From: Olsenella uli DSM 7084
Lineage (GTDB): Bacteria; Actinomycetota; Coriobacteriia; Coriobacteriales; Atopobiaceae
Assembly (NCBI RefSeq): GCF_000143845.1
Contig: NC_014363.1
Coordinates: 1,473,186 to 1,537,185 of the forward strand
DNA: 64,000 nt
Reading direction: 5' to 3'
In this document: positions 1 to 61,573 of the stretch, piece after piece
Layout: the number at the start of each line of letters is the position of its first letter
How positions within the stretch are numbered: the stretch's first letter is position 1
Made by a program: the position numbers and the translations under genes
The notes under the pieces: generated by a model
What the model was told of the DNA's origin: nothing
Seen by the model: only the letters and a program-made list of their open reading frames with translations
Databases searched by the model: none

Positions 1-166
1 TCTCGTCGCCCTCGAGGCACCTCCTCAGCTGAGGGTCCTCGATCTCACGCCTGTTGGAGGCGATCTCCTCGACGCGAGGGTTGCCTGACGGAGCCGGTCG
101 CCTGCGCGCCACGCGCATGCGACGGATGCTCCTGAGGGCGGATATGCCTACGATGCAGGTTTCCAT
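1..166 (-). CDS. Partial N-terminus of a Vsr/DUF559-like family protein (runs off left edge)
   Basis: An open minus-strand frame starts at ATG 166 and stays open to the window edge, giving about 55 residues. The start reads METCIVGISALRSIRR and the frame later contains QLRRCLE. The intact gene at 25180-26277 begins MELLLTHSTALEAYR and contains QLRRYLE at the same distance, so the two look like paralogues. In this family the N-terminus carries the SAL-x-x-x-R motif and the C-terminus, outside the window here, carries a Vsr-like nuclease fold. The ribosome site is weak (GGAAAAC about 7 nt upstream). Family assignment is inferred from a short stretch, so confidence is moderate. Confidence 0.5.
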   Translation of the reverse strand, partial: METCIVGISALRSIRRMRVARRRPAPSGNPRVEEIASNRREIEDPQLRRCLEGDE

Positions 167-8338: not shown

Positions 8339-10153
8339 CTAGCGGCGGAGGAGGCGCCCGAAGATGCGGCGCGCGACGTCCATCTCGGGCGCGTGGGTGA
8401 GCGCTGCCAAGCCATAGGTCACGACGAGCGCGGGGACGCCGCCACAGACGATGTAGAGCAGCGCGCCGGAGACGGAAAGGCGCTCGACGTAGTTGCCGAG
8501 GGTCGTAAGGTTCAGCAGCACGGCAGAGGCCGCTACGCCCGCCACGCCGAACGCCAGCGCGCGGAGCGCGGAGCCGACGATCCCCACGAGCCCGACGTGG
8601 CCCAGGTGGCGCTTGAGCATCGCAAAGGTCACGACGTCGACCGCCGCGAAGTACAGGAAGGACGAGAAGGCCACCATCCAGAGCCCGACGACAGGCGTGA
8701 GGAAGATGCAGGCGGCGACTTGGATGAGGGCTGCGATGACGTTGGAGGTCGCGTACAGCCTCATCTTCCGCAGTGACGAGCAGACCTTCTGGAGGTACAT
8801 GCAGACCGCATACACGGGCAGCCCGACGGCGAGCGCCGAGAGGTAGTTCGCCGTCATGCCGATCTGGTCGGACGTGAAGTTGCCTGCGGCGAGCAGGGTG
8901 ATGAGCGGGAACGAGAACTGGACGAGGTACATGCCGAACGGAATCATGAAGAACAGGATCTTGCTGGTCCCCGACGAGACGCCCCGTCGGTAGGAGTCCA
9001 TGTCGCCCCGTGCGACGTCGTCGGAGAGCTCGGTGAACATGGCCGTGGTGATGGGCACCGCGAGTATGGCGTAGGGCAGCGTGTACCAGAGGCGCGCGTA
9101 GTACGAGACGGACGCCCCCTCGGCCGCGACGAAGAGCGCTGAGCTGGTCTGGACCGACACGGTCACGAACGAGCAGAGCATGACCACGAGCGACGGTATG
9201 CCGATGGAGAGCGTGTCCTTGATGGCGGGGTCATGAAGGTCGACGTGGAAGCGCAGCCGGATGCCGTGCCTCCTCAGCGAGGGCATCTGCATGACGACCT
9301 GGACCGCGACGCCCAGGGGGTTGCCAAGTGCCAGCAGCAGGAGCGCGAGCTGGGGGTTCTCGCCAACCAGGAAGGCATAGGCAAAGAACGACGCCGTGGT
9401 GACGAAGTTGTTGAAGATGGGGGCCGCACTGCTCCAGAAGTAGTCGCGCTCGGCGTTGAGGACACCCGAGAAGATGGAGCTCAGCGAGTAGAGGACGACC
9501 TCGATCACGAAGAAGCGGAAGAAGTAGACCGCAAGGTCGCTGTCGAACGCATCGCTGGCCGAGAAGGACTGGGTGAACACCACCTGGTAGGCAAAGACCA
9601 GGCCCAGGACCGTGACGGCGCCCATGAGTATGCACACGAGCGACACGAGGTTCGAGGTGTAGGCACTCGCCCCCTCGCGACCGTACCTCTTCTTGACTGA
9701 GAGGTAGACCGGCAGGAAGGCCGTGACGAGCATGCCGCCGACGACGAGCTCGTAGAGCTGGTTGGGTAGGTTGTTGGCGACCGAGTAGCACGACGCCGTG
9801 ACGGTGACGCCCAGGGCGTACGCCTGTCCCCAGGTGCGCAGGAAGCCCGTGAGGCGGCTGATGACGACGAGGACGCTCATGAGGGCCGTGTTGCGTCCCA
9901 CCTGGGCCGAACGGTCCGCCTCACGGTCCCTCTCGGCCGATCCCCCGTCGGCAGGGCTCCCCCCATCCCCGCGCACGGAGGCAGGCGCGTCGGACGCCGG
10001 CATCGCCTGGGACGTATCCCCTCGCGAGACCTGGTCGGCAAGCCTGACGTAGAGCATCGTCTCCTCGGGGGACGCCCCGCCCCATGCGCCCTGCTGGGTG
10101 CGTGCGCGGGACGGCTCGCCCTTCGGTGCCATGTGCCTGGGGCTCCGGGCCAC
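8339..10153 (-). CDS. murJ: Lipid II flippase MurJ (MviN)
   Basis: This is a 604-aa polytopic membrane protein of the MOP exporter superfamily that flips lipid II for peptidoglycan synthesis. After a polar N-terminal extension of about 90 residues come the MurJ hallmarks: SVLVVISRLTGFLRTWGQA, NNLPNQLYELVVGGML, then about 13 further hydrophobic segments. The GTG start at 10153 has AGGAGGT six nt upstream, supporting the long N-terminus. It follows ybaK by 59 bp, probably in one transcript with uvrA and ybaK. Confidence 0.9.
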   Translation of the reverse strand: MARSPRHMAPKGEPSRARTQQGAWGGASPEETMLYVRLADQVSRGDTSQAMPASDAPASVRGDGGSPADGGSAERDREADRSAQVGRNTALMSVLVVISRLTGFLRTWGQAYALGVTVTASCYSVANNLPNQLYELVVGGMLVTAFLPVYLSVKKRYGREGASAYTSNLVSLVCILMGAVTVLGLVFAYQVVFTQSFSASDAFDSDLAVYFFRFFVIEVVLYSLSSIFSGVLNAERDYFWSSAAPIFNNFVTTASFFAYAFLVGENPQLALLLLALGNPLGVAVQVVMQMPSLRRHGIRLRFHVDLHDPAIKDTLSIGIPSLVVMLCSFVTVSVQTSSALFVAAEGASVSYYARLWYTLPYAILAVPITTAMFTELSDDVARGDMDSYRRGVSSGTSKILFFMIPFGMYLVQFSFPLITLLAAGNFTSDQIGMTANYLSALAVGLPVYAVCMYLQKVCSSLRKMRLYATSNVIAALIQVAACIFLTPVVGLWMVAFSSFLYFAAVDVVTFAMLKRHLGHVGLVGIVGSALRALAFGVAGVAASAVLLNLTTLGNYVERLSVSGALLYIVCGGVPALVVTYGLAALTHAPEMDVARRIFGRLLRR

Positions 10154-10212
10154 CTTCTACCTCCTGGTCGAATCGTGCCGGGCAGCCGGAGCCACCGCAG
10201 CCTTGCTGGGCG

Positions 10213-10710
10213 CTACCGGCAGATGTCGGCGAACGTCGCCCCGATGAAGCGGGCGAGCGCCTCGGGATCGAGGCGCAGCGACAGGCCCCGCCGCCCACCC
10301 GAGATGCCGATCTCCTCGAAGAGCTGGGCCGTCTCGTCGATCAGCGTGGGAAGGCGCCTCCTCATGCCCACGGGAGTACAGCCGCCGCGGACGTAGCCCG
10401 TCGTGGGCTCGAGGTCCCTGACGTGCAGCATCGCGAGCGACTTCTCCCCTGCCGCAGCAGCGGCCTTCTTGAGGTCGAGCTCCGCCGCCACAGGGACGCA
10501 GCAGACCACATGCCCGCCCGCAGGCGTCGTGGTCACGAGCGTCTTGAACGCGCTGTCGGGGTCCTCCCCCAACATTCGAGAGATGCGTACGCCCACGCCC
10601 GTGGAGAGGTCCTCGCCGTCGACATCGTAACTCCGCACGGAGTACGGGACACCTCCCCGCTCGAGCTCGCGCATGGCGTTGGTCTTCTGGACCTTGTCGC
10701 GGCGCGCCAT
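10213..10710 (-). CDS. ybaK: Cys-tRNA(Pro) deacylase, YbaK/EbsC family
   Basis: This 165-aa protein has the YbaK fold throughout: an N-terminal Thr/Asn-Ala helix, FKTLVTTTPAGGHVVCCVPV, the catalytic-lysine region DLKKAAAAAGEKS, and YVRGGCTPVGMRR with the GG-x-x-P motif. The family hydrolyses mischarged Cys-tRNA(Pro). ATG 10710 abuts the uvrA stop codon at 10711, so the two genes are tightly coupled. Confidence 0.93.
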   Translation of the reverse strand: MARRDKVQKTNAMRELERGGVPYSVRSYDVDGEDLSTGVGVRISRMLGEDPDSAFKTLVTTTPAGGHVVCCVPVAAELDLKKAAAAAGEKSLAMLHVRDLEPTTGYVRGGCTPVGMRRRLPTLIDETAQLFEEIGISGGRRGLSLRLDPEALARFIGATFADICR

Positions 10711-13611
<2,901 letters not shown>

Positions 13612-22514: not shown

Positions 22515-24740
22515 CTACCTGCCACTCCTCTTCGTGCGGAGGACTGCTGCCGCCACGACGAGCGCCGCGCCCGCCGCGCCCAGGGCAAACGATGGAAGGA
22601 CGCTGATGGGGTCGGAGGTCTGAGGAAGCCTGCCCGTACCCCTCTTGCCCGTCGGGGTGACCGTATTGCCAGGAGTGGGATCCGGCTTCGGTTCTGTGAC
22701 CTCGACAGTGGCGGTCTGCGAGGTGGCCTTCTGGCCGGAGGTGCCGTTGGTGGCCACGCAGTAGTAGCTGAAGGAGCCGACTTCCGAAGTGCCGACGGTA
22801 AGGGTGTCTCCCGTACCGGCGGAGCTGTCGGCACTGCTGCCTGCTGCGGGAACACGCAGGGCGGCCGACGGCATGATCCGCTTCGCACCGGCGTTCGCGC
22901 CGTTGGAGTCGGAGGATTTCGCCACCTTGAACCACTCGTAGGTCAGCTTGGAGTCGCTGCCCTCGACGCCATCGGGGATGCTCGCCTTGGCGCTGAGCGT
23001 GACAGGCTTGCCTTTCTCGACAGTCACATTTGAGGGCTCTGTGGTGAAGGTCGGGGCAAAGACGGAGGTGGCGTAGCAGATGGGGGTCTTCGCGAGGCCG
23101 GTCTCCTCATCAAAGTCGCTGGGGACGAAGGGCGTGGACTGGTCACCATGAAGATAGGCGCGCATCTCGTCGAGAAGGGCCTTGGTCTTTGCGTACACCT
23201 CGGTGCTGGCCTGCTTGTGGAGCCTGTTGGCAAGGTCCGTGCGCTCGGAGGCGGGCGTCTCCTGCATGACCTTGTCGACCGTCGCCTGTTGGGCAATGAG
23301 CTGCCTCTGCAGGGCGTCGAGATAGGCACGGGTGCCGCTGGCAAGCTTGTCGCGCCTGTTGTAGGCAAGCGTGTTGATGTCCATCAGGACGTAGTCGAGC
23401 GAGCCGTTGTCGGTCGTGGCGTCCATGGCGGCGTCGACGCTGTCTTCCCTCTCGGCGGTGCCCGTGTGCGCCTCGCTCCATCCATCGACGGCAGGGTAGA
23501 CGTCCTTGTCGACCTCGGTGAGCAGGGCAGAGTAGCTGGGAATGGCGATGCCGAACTCGGAGCGCGAGAGGTTCTCCCACTGTATGGTGGCGACGTCCGC
23601 ACTCATTCCCTGGCGGATCTGGTACAGGTGAGTCTCGACCGTGCGGTTGTTGCCGATGGCATAGAGACCCGCATTGGTGTTGGCGTTGAGGCTGCTGTCC
23701 TGCTCGCCGCGTGCCGCGAAGGAGCGCAGCGCCTGGAACAGGTCCACCTTGTCGTTGCCGGGGGTGAAGAGGAGCTGGGGATCGCTCACGGAGGTCACGC
23801 CCGACGCGCCCATCGTGTAGCTGCCCTCCTCGAGCGGGGAGCCAAAGTACACGCGGCCCTGCGCAAGGCGCGTGTACTGTCCGGAACCGGCACTGGCTGC
23901 GCCGTACGAGGTGGCGACATCGAGGGATCCGTCCGCAAAGTAGGTGGCGCTCCCCGCGTCCACGGCAGTCTCCTTCAGCCTCTCGGAGTGCAGGCAGAGG
24001 TTCTCGTCGTCGAGGTCGGCCTGATACTTGAGCTGTCCGATGTTGGGGTTGACCGAAGCCTTGTCGGGGTAGGCGGCCGTCAGGTTGAGCGCGATCCACT
24101 GATGCCCCGAGAGCTGCGCAAAGAGCCAGGTCTCGTTGTTGTCCGAGACGATGATCTGGTTGCAGTCGTAGCTGCCATGCTCGTCGATGATCCTTCCCAG
24201 GAGCTTGACGCCGTCACGCGCCGTGGGACTGCAGGCCAGCACGACGTCAGCGATGGTGTACTCGCCCAGACCGCTCGGGTTGTCCCTGTCCTCGTTGCCA
24301 CAGGGGTCGACGGCCTTGACCTGGTCGTTGTAGTCCGTGGTGAGTGTCGCGGAGACGCTCACGCCCCTCTCGTTGGTGCCCGCCTCGGAATAGGCATCGG
24401 TGCGGTTGTCCCAACCCGAGGGGAGGTCGCGCACATAGGTGTAGCGATACGTCGTCCCCGTGTACGTCCACTGGAAGTCGGACTCGTCGGATGAGAACGT
24501 GGGGTTGGTCCGAGGCTCCTGGATGCCGAATGCCTTGGGATGGCGGGGTGCGTAGTCCTCCGCGCGGCCAACGTAGACGTTACCTGTGTCCGTGAGTCCG
24601 GGACCGACGTAGACCTGCGTGCATGCGAGCGCATCCTTTGGCAGCGCCATGGAGAGCGACAGCGCCATGGCGACCGCCATGCCAACAGCCCCTCCAAAAC
24701 GCCTCTTGTCCCACTTTCCTGTCATGTGCATAGAGCGCAT
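22515..24740 (-). CDS. Secreted C69-family dipeptidase with Ig-like domain and LPxTG-like anchor
   Basis: The protein is 741 aa. Residues 1-39 form a signal peptide ending ALA. The next residue, Cys40 in ACTQVYVG, fits the self-exposed N-terminal nucleophile of C69 dipeptidases. The catalytic domain spans to about residue 555 (NERGVSVSATLT, WENLSRSEFG are family motifs). An Ig-like domain follows at about 565-690, then a Pro-rich linker, LPQTSD, a hydrophobic helix and RTKRSGR, a sortase-type sorting signal. Start choice is ambiguous: GGGAGG lies 3 nt before ATG 24740 and 12 nt before ATG 24731. Confidence 0.9.
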   Translation of the reverse strand: MRSMHMTGKWDKRRFGGAVGMAVAMALSLSMALPKDALACTQVYVGPGLTDTGNVYVGRAEDYAPRHPKAFGIQEPRTNPTFSSDESDFQWTYTGTTYRYTYVRDLPSGWDNRTDAYSEAGTNERGVSVSATLTTDYNDQVKAVDPCGNEDRDNPSGLGEYTIADVVLACSPTARDGVKLLGRIIDEHGSYDCNQIIVSDNNETWLFAQLSGHQWIALNLTAAYPDKASVNPNIGQLKYQADLDDENLCLHSERLKETAVDAGSATYFADGSLDVATSYGAASAGSGQYTRLAQGRVYFGSPLEEGSYTMGASGVTSVSDPQLLFTPGNDKVDLFQALRSFAARGEQDSSLNANTNAGLYAIGNNRTVETHLYQIRQGMSADVATIQWENLSRSEFGIAIPSYSALLTEVDKDVYPAVDGWSEAHTGTAEREDSVDAAMDATTDNGSLDYVLMDINTLAYNRRDKLASGTRAYLDALQRQLIAQQATVDKVMQETPASERTDLANRLHKQASTEVYAKTKALLDEMRAYLHGDQSTPFVPSDFDEETGLAKTPICYATSVFAPTFTTEPSNVTVEKGKPVTLSAKASIPDGVEGSDSKLTYEWFKVAKSSDSNGANAGAKRIMPSAALRVPAAGSSADSSAGTGDTLTVGTSEVGSFSYYCVATNGTSGQKATSQTATVEVTEPKPDPTPGNTVTPTGKRGTGRLPQTSDPISVLPSFALGAAGAALVVAAAVLRTKRSGR

Positions 24741-24804
24741 CAACCTCCCAAGGGTGATTGGATAACTTCCAGGGACCCCTAACAGACCTGGACATCAGCT
24801 TGGG

Positions 24805-24810: not shown

Positions 24811-24950
24811 TAGGCCTGATACCTGGGGGCGCCCCCTTAAAGAGGGAGAGGTGCCGGATGGACGGCGAGCGGAAGACCTTGGTGGCGTTGGCGAGACGAT
24901 CGTCGCCAAGGTTAAGGAGGCCCTCGGGCCCAGGGCGCGCTGCAGATAAC

Positions 24951-25060
24951 GGCGCTGTGGCGGGCCACGTGGCCAAACCGTGACAAATTGTGGCGCCGTG
25001 GCACGGATTCTGCGCCACAGCGCCATTTTTTGTTACACGCAGCCCCATAGTGCCACGGCA
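24951..25060. repeat. Palindrome-rich repeat, copy 1, flanking the nuclease-family gene
   Basis: About 110 bp that align with 26570-26681 in the same orientation. Shared blocks are GGCGCTGTGGC, GCCAC(G/A)TGGCCA, CCGTGACAAAT, a GGCGC(C/T)GTGGCAC / GCGCCAC(A/G)GCGCCA inverted repeat that can fold into a strong hairpin, and GTGCCACGGC at the end. A further perfect hairpin, GCCACGGCAT-CTA-ATGCCGTGGC, overlaps its right end at 25053-25075. Confidence 0.75.
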
Positions 25061-25179
25061 TCTAATGCCGTGGCGTCGTCTCTACGACAACCCCCCTCTG
25101 CAGCGGCTTCTCTTTCCGCAAACCCCCTCTGTAACGACCCTTCTTTTCGCGACACCACCGTCTGCGACATCCTTCGCCG

Positions 25180-26277
25180 CTACACCCCATACGCATCAAC
25201 CGGCACGAGTTCGACGGCATCGAGCGGCTCTTCCGTGGCAACCTTACGGTAATCGCCACGCTTCCTGCCACCCCAAGTCACCCCATCAATGCGGTCAAGC
25301 TCCTCCTTGAGCGCAAGCCGCAAGGCCCGACGCTTTCGCTTTCTCTCCTCCGTCATCCGATAGCATGGATGACCGATATCGTCGGCAATCGTCCTCATAA
25401 GGGCATCCATGTATTCAAGATCGTCGTACAGCTCTTTGTTGAGCTGATACTCGATGCCGCCGTACGCCAGGATCTCGTTGGTTCTGCGCTCGTCCTCTGC
25501 CTGCCGCTCGCGCGTGAGGTGGTCATTGCCGTTGTACTCCAGCGCGACGAAGCGCGCCTTGGCCCTCGAGCCGGGAAGGGCCCCAAAGACGAAGTCTGGC
25601 TTTCGGACCTTCCGTGAGCCCCTCTTGCCGACGGCGTCGACGTCGAGAGGTCGATTCGCGGCATCGATCTCCATGCCGTATCCCCCGTAGCACGGCGAGA
25701 GCACCGTCCGTAGACACAGTCGTGTCTCCATCGGGGATGCCAGGCCCTCTACGGTCGCCGGGAGCGCCTGCCGCACGAGATCGATCCCGTCGATGCGATC
25801 GAGCCTGTCAATATGACGCTCGATCGACTCCTTGGCCATGAGCGGAGAGTTTCTCTGCAGCATCCCATCGGAGATCGACGGCACAATCGCATAGACGCCG
25901 AGCAGCTCGCAAAGAAGCACCTGCAGCTCGAGCTTGGTGAGCAGAGGGGCCATTTGAACCGCAAGATGCTCGGGCATGACGCAGGCGACACCCTCCCCGA
26001 TCACCATGATGCTTCCCGTCGGCAGCGGTCTCCCACAGACCCTGGTCCGCAAGCTAGAAGACCTGCGACGGCTCCCGACCCCGCTGACTAAGGCCTCCAT
26101 CACCTTTGGGCAGAAGCCGTAGAACTCGAGGTAACGGCGAAGTTGCGACAGACGTTCCGGTGCCGGCAGGCAGGAAGGAATGGCATCGGGACAGACTTCC
26201 CCCTTCGCCAGGAGTGCACGCAATCCGGTGGATCGGTACGCCTCGAGCGCAGTCGAATGTGTGAGTAGCAGTTCCAT
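25180..26277 (-). CDS. Uncharacterised Vsr/DUF559-like PD-(D/E)XK family protein
   Basis: This is a 365-aa protein of a family common in gut coriobacteria and clostridia, function unknown. The N-terminus has the SAL-x-x-x-R element (STALEAYR). The middle has the PEHLAVQMA region and LLCELLGVYAIVP. From residue 180 come SPMETRLCL, GGYGM, KPDFVFG with Asp228, FVALEYNGNDH with Glu247 and His253, and ERQAEDERRTNEIL with a D-x-x-R. This layout resembles the Vsr/DUF559 endonuclease fold and the C-terminal part of AbiEi-like proteins. The last 50 residues are highly basic. It is flanked by two copies of a 110-bp repeat. Nuclease activity and defence role are inferences. Confidence 0.7.
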   Translation of the reverse strand: MELLLTHSTALEAYRSTGLRALLAKGEVCPDAIPSCLPAPERLSQLRRYLEFYGFCPKVMEALVSGVGSRRRSSSLRTRVCGRPLPTGSIMVIGEGVACVMPEHLAVQMAPLLTKLELQVLLCELLGVYAIVPSISDGMLQRNSPLMAKESIERHIDRLDRIDGIDLVRQALPATVEGLASPMETRLCLRTVLSPCYGGYGMEIDAANRPLDVDAVGKRGSRKVRKPDFVFGALPGSRAKARFVALEYNGNDHLTRERQAEDERRTNEILAYGGIEYQLNKELYDDLEYMDALMRTIADDIGHPCYRMTEERKRKRRALRLALKEELDRIDGVTWGGRKRGDYRKVATEEPLDAVELVPVDAYGV

Positions 26278-26352
26278 GTATCAAGGCTATACGTCACGCC
26301 TCTCTTGGCAGGCGCCATTCGAAGGTTGGGTAAAAATGTCTTTCTGAATTCT

Positions 26353-26388
26353 TGCGGATAGCTGGCAGAATGCGGATAGCTGGCAGAA
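26353..26388. repeat. Perfect 18-bp tandem duplication upstream of the nuclease-family gene
   Basis: TGCGGATAGCTGGCAGAA occurs twice in direct contact, 26353-26370 and 26371-26388, some 75-110 bp upstream of the gene start at 26277. It may duplicate a promoter or operator. Apart from this and the repeat at 26570-26681, nothing was recognised in 26278-26826. Confidence 0.8.
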
Positions 26389-26569
26389 TTACCCTGTCTT
26401 GCCGCATATATATAGGTCAAGCCATCGCCCGATGCGCTGGACAGAAGACGCACGCCCTGCTGTGGGCAGGGAGCAGGCACACCGGCCCAATGTTCAACGT
26501 TGATTTCTCGCCACCTGCCACATAAGTTCGTGCGGCGAGTGAACGCCGCTCGCACACGTTACAGAAATC

Positions 26570-26681
26570 AGCGCTGTGGCACGCCACATGGCCACTCCGT
26601 GACAAATATCGGCGCTGTGGCACAAAATCCGCGCCACGGCGCCAATATTCTCAACACTCGAACTCTCGCCAGTGCCACGGC
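26570..26681. repeat. Palindrome-rich repeat, copy 2, flanking the nuclease-family gene
   Basis: This is the direct-orientation partner of 24951-25060, about 75-80% alike by eye over the first 75 bp. It opens CAGCGCTGTGGC, contains GCCACATGGCCA and CCGTGACAAAT, then a GGCGCTGTGGC / GCGCCACGGCGCC inverted repeat, and ends GTGCCACGGC. It lies between the uvrB stop and the start region of the nuclease-family gene. Confidence 0.75.
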
Positions 26682-26826
26682 GACCTTTTTCGCAACGCCC
26701 ATGCTGCATGCCCACTCGGCGAGAGGCGCAGCTTGCCAAGACCGTGCCCTCGACCACCCGGTCGAACGGGTCGTGCTGCAGGATGCCTGCGGCAGCCACC
26801 GCCTCCGGCGGCACGTTGGCGCCACG

Positions 26827-29148
<2,322 letters not shown>

Positions 29149-59132: not shown

Positions 59133-61573
<2,441 letters not shown>

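Follow-up and report, generated by a model that had tools for sequence, protein, structure and literature searches.

Genes of a predicted nuclease family in Olsenella uli and its relatives are bracketed by arrays of short repeat units, and this pairing of gene and array is well supported. We analyzed it around one such gene in a stretch of 64,000 nucleotides from O. uli DSM 7084 (hereafter the window) and in related genomes. The bracketing, the clade-specific units and their phasing, the dispersal of cognate units only, the descent of the copies, the exchange, inversion, and loss of cassettes, and the conserved nuclease residues were all observed. The reading that we prefer, and that the evidence favors without a wide margin, is that the cassette is a unit of an enzyme and its cognate repeats, resembling a REPtron but built on an unrelated nuclease. 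Against this reading, neither binding nor cleavage nor movement has been observed; binding, cutting, and nuclease-driven copying are inferred. Also counting against it are the weaker link in the wider family, the arrays that persist without the gene, the weak relation of unit similarity to protein identity, the lack of a PDB match by Foldseek alone, and the building of the motif models from the flanks in which they were then found.

A search of open-access full text found no description of this nuclease-array pairing (subscription papers and preprints outside that set were not covered). We call the pairing a new kind because, for each known kind considered, at least one defining feature is either missing or untested, and the REPtron serves as the working analogue. 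Bacterial dispersed palindromic repeats have one well-described partner enzyme class, the RAYTs, and some REP families are without a known partner (PMC3733652). If the preferred reading is true, the cassettes would be an independently evolved counterpart of the transposase-repeat pairs and a new kind of self-spreading DNA. With a second, unrelated class of enzyme and its dozens of natural pairs of enzyme and site, the spread and domestication of repeats and changes of specificity would become open to direct testing, and the family could yield many new long-site DNA-binding nucleases whose sites are readable from the genome.

The window cassette and the predicted fold of its protein

The cassette and its parts are listed in Table 1. 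The preliminary description had claimed one gene between two repeats of the same orientation, and this held, while the identity of the repeats had to be corrected, as the copies are 77-80% identical to one another and not exact. The window repeats consist of ~24-bp units arranged as (+)n(-)m arrays, in which consecutive same-strand units lie 41 bp apart, and a + unit and a - unit that face each other make up the GGCGC...GCGCC hairpin. The right array matches the left one at 80% over 83 bp (E 1.3e-14, genome-scale BLAST).

Table 1. Features of the cassette and its neighbors, in window positions
Feature	Position	Strand	Description
Family gene, 365 aa	25180..26277	-	AbiEi-CTD-like N domain, Vsr/EDxHD-like nuclease and C-terminal helices (predicted)
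Residues 1-177, AbiEi-antitoxin-like domain (6y8q)	25747..26277	-	Structure comparison of the model
Residues 181-303, Vsr/EDxHD-like PD-(D/E)XK nuclease core	25369..25737	-	E184, D228, E247, H253, D262; fold
Array downstream of gene	24939..25036		Units + 24939-24962, + 24980-25003, - 25013-25036
Array upstream of gene	26558..26696		Units + 26558-26581, + 26599-26622, - 26632-26655, - 26673-26696
Complete cassette, array - gene - array	24939..26696		Between uvrB and the peptidase-like gene
uvrB	26827-29148	-	Cassette neighbor; name read from translation, no search
Peptidase-like gene	22515-24743	-	Cassette neighbor; name read from translation, no search

The unit pattern of the window, GTNACARAAWNNGGCGCYGTGGCRC, occurs nine times in the 2.05-Mb genome with up to 3 mismatches, at three places only, and its reversed-pattern control gave 0. 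The two further O. uli places with window-type units are L009, which carries a 99-bp copy of 100% identity, and L012, with a 72% copy. The L009 copy matches the left array of the window, and the homology runs ~45 bp beyond it on one side, whereas on the opposite side it stops precisely at the edge of a unit. A short 13-bp unit pattern with 2 mismatches was uninformative (882 genome matches vs 715 in the control) and showed no excess over shuffles in the window. Rfam detected no array-linked family in L154, L158, L143, L155, or L166 (two tRNAs only), and gave sub-threshold matches only at the window arrays.

Other features of the window were noted in passing. The stretch shared by the window (~24893-24950) and L009 (~1430-1500) past the identical arrays resembles the 3' end of a gene that has been lost, and a degenerate 31-bp tandem repeat lies at 25088-25149, between the left array and the 3' end of the gene. 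Furthermore, a repeat of two L007-type units, whose cognate gene is a different O. uli family member at 1,327 kb, lies at positions 61486-61573, and positions 1-166 (minus strand) hold the 5' end of the paralog L003, another family gene, which has no shared flank repeat.

We then turn to the protein. The AlphaFold models had a pLDDT of 87.5 for the window protein and 88.9 for its relative L154, and Foldseek candidates were compared a second time to give the Z scores reported here. Residues 181-303 of the window model thus matched the solved structure of the EDxHD homing endonuclease I-Bth0305I with Z 11.1 (rmsd 2.6 Å, 95 aa), and the L154 model matched I-Bth0305I with Z 9.4 and E. coli Vsr with Z 8.5. 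The N domain matched the AbiEi antitoxin 6y8q with Z 7.4 (rmsd 3.7 Å, 120 aa), and that of L154 with Z 7.9. The alignment of model residues 1-176 reaches AbiEi residues 67-195 only and leaves the winged-helix N domain unmatched, although a missing match does not prove absence. With Foldseek alone, the window model had no match at E <= 0.001 in the PDB, nor was there one at E <= 0.001 among predicted viral structures.

The residues E184, D228, and H253 are kept in 36/36 family members, E247 in 33/36 (2 D, 1 N), and D262 in 32/36; we take these residues to be the letters of the EDxHD catalytic set, an assignment of our own. Fold and conserved residues together fit a Vsr/EDxHD nuclease, as predicted by the model, and DNA cleavage is inferred. 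A Vsr-like active site of D228, E247, and H253 had been proposed from the sequence alone, and it held as conserved residues within the nuclease core of the predicted fold. It had also been allowed that the fold might contain no nuclease active site; instead, the core matched I-Bth0305I and Vsr.

Sequence-based searches were less telling. Pfam, NCBIfam, and PADLOC yielded nothing above threshold for the window protein (PADLOC 0 hits), and a PDB sequence search gave chance-like matches only. When the 36 members were searched, Pfam assigned REase_MTES_1575 to 16 and DUF559 to 8, with other hits minor and no Y1_Tnp or HUH domain, NCBIfam gave 0, and PADLOC gave AbiEi (E 0.0011) and PDC-S69 in 1/36 each. 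Since no HUH/Y1 domain was found and the fold is PD-(D/E)XK, the family protein is not a RAYT. No AbiEii nucleotidyltransferase toxin adjoins the gene in the window or appears among the neighbors at sites A, A2, B, and C described below (names read from translations), and no methyltransferase gene was seen beside the window gene.

Bracketing, phasing and specificity of the arrays

With a profile of seven O. uli paralogs, the family was detected in 132 of 140 genomes, representing 32 of the 35 genera of one bacterial family. The number of family genes per genome is at least that counted, because only 15 candidates per genome were scored. No relative came up in an initial contig scan that used the window protein alone. 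Some family genes carry one in-frame stop (hits G064:C28, G126:C11, G100:C6, G006:C2, and G056:C1), and decayed copies therefore exist.

The left and right flanks of the same gene shared a repeat in 20/32 loci, compared with 17/992 pairs taken from different loci (800-bp flanks, shared repeat at >=40 bits; L066, a duplicate of L003, and L068, L071, L072, and L095, with a flank under 300 bp, were left out). A second set comprised 38 named loci from Olsenella, Thermophilibacter, and uncultured relatives (Atopobiaceae) and overlaps the first in part, several loci being the same place. In this set, 24/27 genes were bracketed vs 0/58 length-matched control genes of the same loci. That count rests on ORF calls that lost 10/38 loci to antisense ORFs; when gene positions were taken from match coordinates, 31/36 genes shared flank repeats, two of the 38 loci being left out for short flanks. 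Within O. uli, 3/7 family genes share a flank repeat and 4/7 have none at >=40 bits, and hence the link is strong in the subfamily of the window gene, weaker outside it, and not universal.

It had been conceded at the outset that the repeats might be random with respect to the family genes, and a tight association was found instead. The random-repeat explanation is ruled out by the cross-pair (17/992) and control-gene (0/58) comparisons.

Arrays of (+)n(-)m layout lie on both sides of most genes, and more arrays occur up to 10 kb off, as located by motif models from the flanks of each gene; the units were thus found in the same flanks from which the models had been built. Of 326 same-strand spacings, 319 were 30-31, 40-42, 52-53, 62-63, 73, or 82-83 bp, which are multiples of ~10.4 bp, the helical repeat (Rayleigh R 0.933). 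Spacings inside one array are not independent; nevertheless, different genes have settled on 31, 41, 52, or 62 bp. L125 and L138, whose motif models are of low complexity, were left out of the phasing and motif-by-locus scans.

Unit sequence and spacing are particular to each protein clade. The unit sequences vary by gene (...CCTTGTC, ...GTTGGAG, and ...GTGGCAC on the reading strand) with constant length and layout, and a GTAG head is not common to the unit consensus sequences. When every motif model was run against every locus, at least four hits were obtained in 77/78 same-clade pairs vs 28/1280 unrelated pairs, and in 14/85 of the cross-clade pairs in which the clade of the model's gene is known elsewhere in that genome. 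The specificity extends to entire genomes: the L154-type pattern was matched 211, 137, 166, and 99 times in the four genomes that carry a gene >=77% identical to L162, and 0-24 times in each of the remaining 18. For the L158-type pattern, its three genomes gave 40, 34, and 61 matches, one further genome gave 3, and 18 gave none. Similarly, O. uli had 31 matches to the unit pattern of its paralog L007 (some of them counted on both strands), two genomes had a single match each, and 137 had none. The reversed-pattern controls of the L154, L158, and L007 searches matched at most once per strand and genome. Among distant clades, unit similarity follows protein identity only weakly (Spearman 0.15, Mantel p 0.023; L125, L134, L138, and L161 left out), with a weak lean by domain toward residues 1-100 (Spearman 0.27, vs 0.01 for the nuclease).

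These data bear on the explanation that another enzyme, such as a RAYT or an IS transposase, spreads the arrays and that the nuclease gene merely lies in repeat-rich gaps. No positive evidence supports it. Each nuclease clade has one unit type, found only in genomes with that clade save for orphan arrays, and none of the 58 control genes was bracketed. We thus regard this explanation as very unlikely, although it is not excluded.

Dispersed copies, cassette exchange and loss

Thirteen two-unit L007-type copies align across the inter-unit spacer, and most share ~AAAGCCCAGTTCAG. These shared spacers and the identical 99-bp copy at L009 argue that the dispersed copies were duplicated and not each selected from scratch. 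Of 11 L007-type copies, nine lie outside coding-like ORFs.

The 38 loci fall mostly at four sites with conserved neighbors (A, A2, B, and C; neighbor gene names were read from translations). Site A, the mfd/amylase gap, holds the cassette in 13 loci, with the gene in one orientation in six and in the other in seven. When the site A loci L139 and L149 were compared, the neighbors were 96-98% identical, with only 55-58% at the array and 65-80% in the gene; the edges are sharp, identity being back at 98% within 200 bp past the cassette gene. Furthermore, divergence at 4-fold sites was greater for the cassette gene than for mfd in 55/55 pairs from 11 loci (e.g. identity 56.7 vs 88.7; two of the 13 site A loci, L136 and L146, were left out), which points to exchange of older cassettes and not only to fast protein change. 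Cassettes were thus swapped between species while the adjoining genes stayed alike.

Pure positive selection was considered separately as the cause of the protein divergence and is ruled out, since the 4-fold synonymous sites are far more diverged than those of mfd.

In the tree, the site B genes form one supported clade and the site C genes another, sister to a site A group, and the site A genes are split over several clades. Site A of O. uli is without a cassette, and its 302-bp gap contains an L007-type array. The mazG-mfd gap holds various genes and arrays across genomes, and a pre-insertion comparison is uninformative there. No array insertion with a clean pre-insertion site was dated.

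Loss was seen in Thermophilibacter gallinarum, sister to the L143 genome (97% neighbors), which has no L143 cassette at site B. The join runs from L143 position 9690 to 11358, with two + units remaining and a short shared GGAAGGTCCC, and the best L162-like protein of this genome is 48-49% identical vs 67% for the L143 type. L143-type arrays nevertheless occur at 16 of the 17 places retrieved, 110 units in total, with no family gene in them. T. gallinarum thus deleted the cassette and kept the dispersed arrays, and its gene-less site B allele with half an array looks like a deletion. Since the 16 places are retained without an L143-type gene, arrays persist without the gene. Likewise, P2912T has no close cognate gene for its two L154-type arrays (L163 3390-3587 and 10211-10470), which are separated by 6.8 kb of sequence without a family gene. 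Alleles with and without the cassette both exist, and the direction and mechanism of copying are not evident from them.

As an alternative, the family protein could be a host regulator or chromosome-organizing protein acting on phased arrays at many intergenic sites, where it would govern the expression of its own and other genes or shape the DNA, with immobile sites kept by selection and the nuclease fold used for binding only. The helical phasing, the 9/11 copies outside coding-like ORFs, the arrays in the same inter-operon gaps in several species, and the report of AbiEi as an autoregulator acting on inverted repeats (PMC7319586) are in its favor, and we consider it possible. Against it, however, stand the conserved nuclease residues, the spacer shared among copies together with the identical copies, the swapping and deletion of entire cassettes, and the difference in specificity between species with 97%-identical neighbors.

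The cassette could also be a conflict system, in which a nuclease toxin or anti-phage enzyme is accompanied by arrays serving as decoy, antidote DNA, or self mark, and an arms race drives the diversification. This would accord with the AbiEi-like domain and with fast exchange at fixed sites, as in defense hotspots. The cassette, however, has a single gene with no AbiEii partner adjoining in the window; PADLOC gave 0 hits for the window protein, and AbiEi and PDC-S69 in only one member each. Decoy DNA would also leave unexplained the dispersed (+)n(-)m arrays at many sites and their persistence after loss of the gene. We therefore judge it unlikely.

Known systems and the proposed mechanism

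REPtrons, in which a RAYT (TnpA-REP) is paired with REPs or REPINs, have a single enzyme for each repeat type, with repeats beside its gene and inverted repeats dispersed in the genome, and the enzyme can be lost while repeats remain (PMC6006769, PMC8049555, PMC3733652, PMC8266576). The cassettes resemble them in that the enzyme gene is flanked by its own repeat type, which is dispersed in the genome, with several types per genome, intergenic inverted pairs, and enzyme loss leaving repeats. They differ in the enzyme, which is AbiEi-like plus Vsr/EDxHD in the cassettes but HUH-Y1 in REPtrons, and in the units, which form helically phased (+)n(-)m arrays of ~24-bp words and not the single hairpin of a REP, a GTAG-tagged imperfect palindrome of 20-40 bp (PMC3733652). 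Complete cassettes are, moreover, exchanged and inverted at fixed sites. The preliminary description had suggested that the unit is mobile or maintains itself, for instance as a REP/RAYT-like pair or as a relocated cassette; the pairing is supported, with cassette exchange and loss seen and the binding, cutting, and moving of repeats inferred, while the RAYT identity itself failed for want of an HUH/Y1 domain.

The closest solved nuclease fold is that of I-Bth0305I, in which the nuclease is likewise tied to a separate DNA-binding region and a long DNA target (PMC3943268). Unlike a homing endonuclease of this kind, the family gene is not in an intron or intein, and its sites are multiplied over the host genome instead of being one empty allele. 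AbiEi, of the type IV toxin-antitoxin systems, is resembled by the N domain over residues 67-195, but the aligned part excludes its N-terminal winged-helix domain, and the family has a fused nuclease, with no toxin partner seen beside the gene. The Vsr, REase_MTES_1575, and DUF559 group shares the PD-(D/E)XK fold, the Vsr match, and the Pfam assignments given above; it differs in that the cassette is repeat-linked, with no methyltransferase gene seen adjoining in the window.

Under the preferred reading of an enzyme with cognate repeats, the AbiEi-like N domain would bind one ~24-bp unit, and several molecules would line one face of the helix along a phased (+)n(-)m array. Such recognition is plausible in view of the report that AbiEi binds two inverted repeats of 23 bp (PMC7319586). 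Cutting by the Vsr/EDxHD nuclease, at or near the array, would be confined to certain conditions, such as extrusion of the palindromic array or its single-stranded state during replication. As such breaks are repaired, arrays would be copied into other intergenic sites, and whole cassettes of array, gene, and array would be exchanged among strains through recombination in the neighbors that they have in common.

A bolder reading, to which we would give slightly less than even credence, is that of a convergent REPtron: the nuclease would recognize and copy its own phased arrays and drive the cassette between strains at fixed sites, and a new specificity would replace gene and local arrays together, so that protein and DNA word would co-diversify. 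PRDM9 and its hotspots offer a likeness for such co-diversification.

Two minor observations concern the surroundings of the arrays. A tandem ~30-bp repeat (CGACGTAGTGCCGCACGCGTTGC and variants) abuts a solo window-type array in the O. uli mazG-mfd gap (L165 ~2700-2910). Finally, the short motif GGTTCTTCTCGCC is common beside arrays and genes in the intergenic DNA of L125-L162, from Olsenella/Thermophilibacter-type genera.
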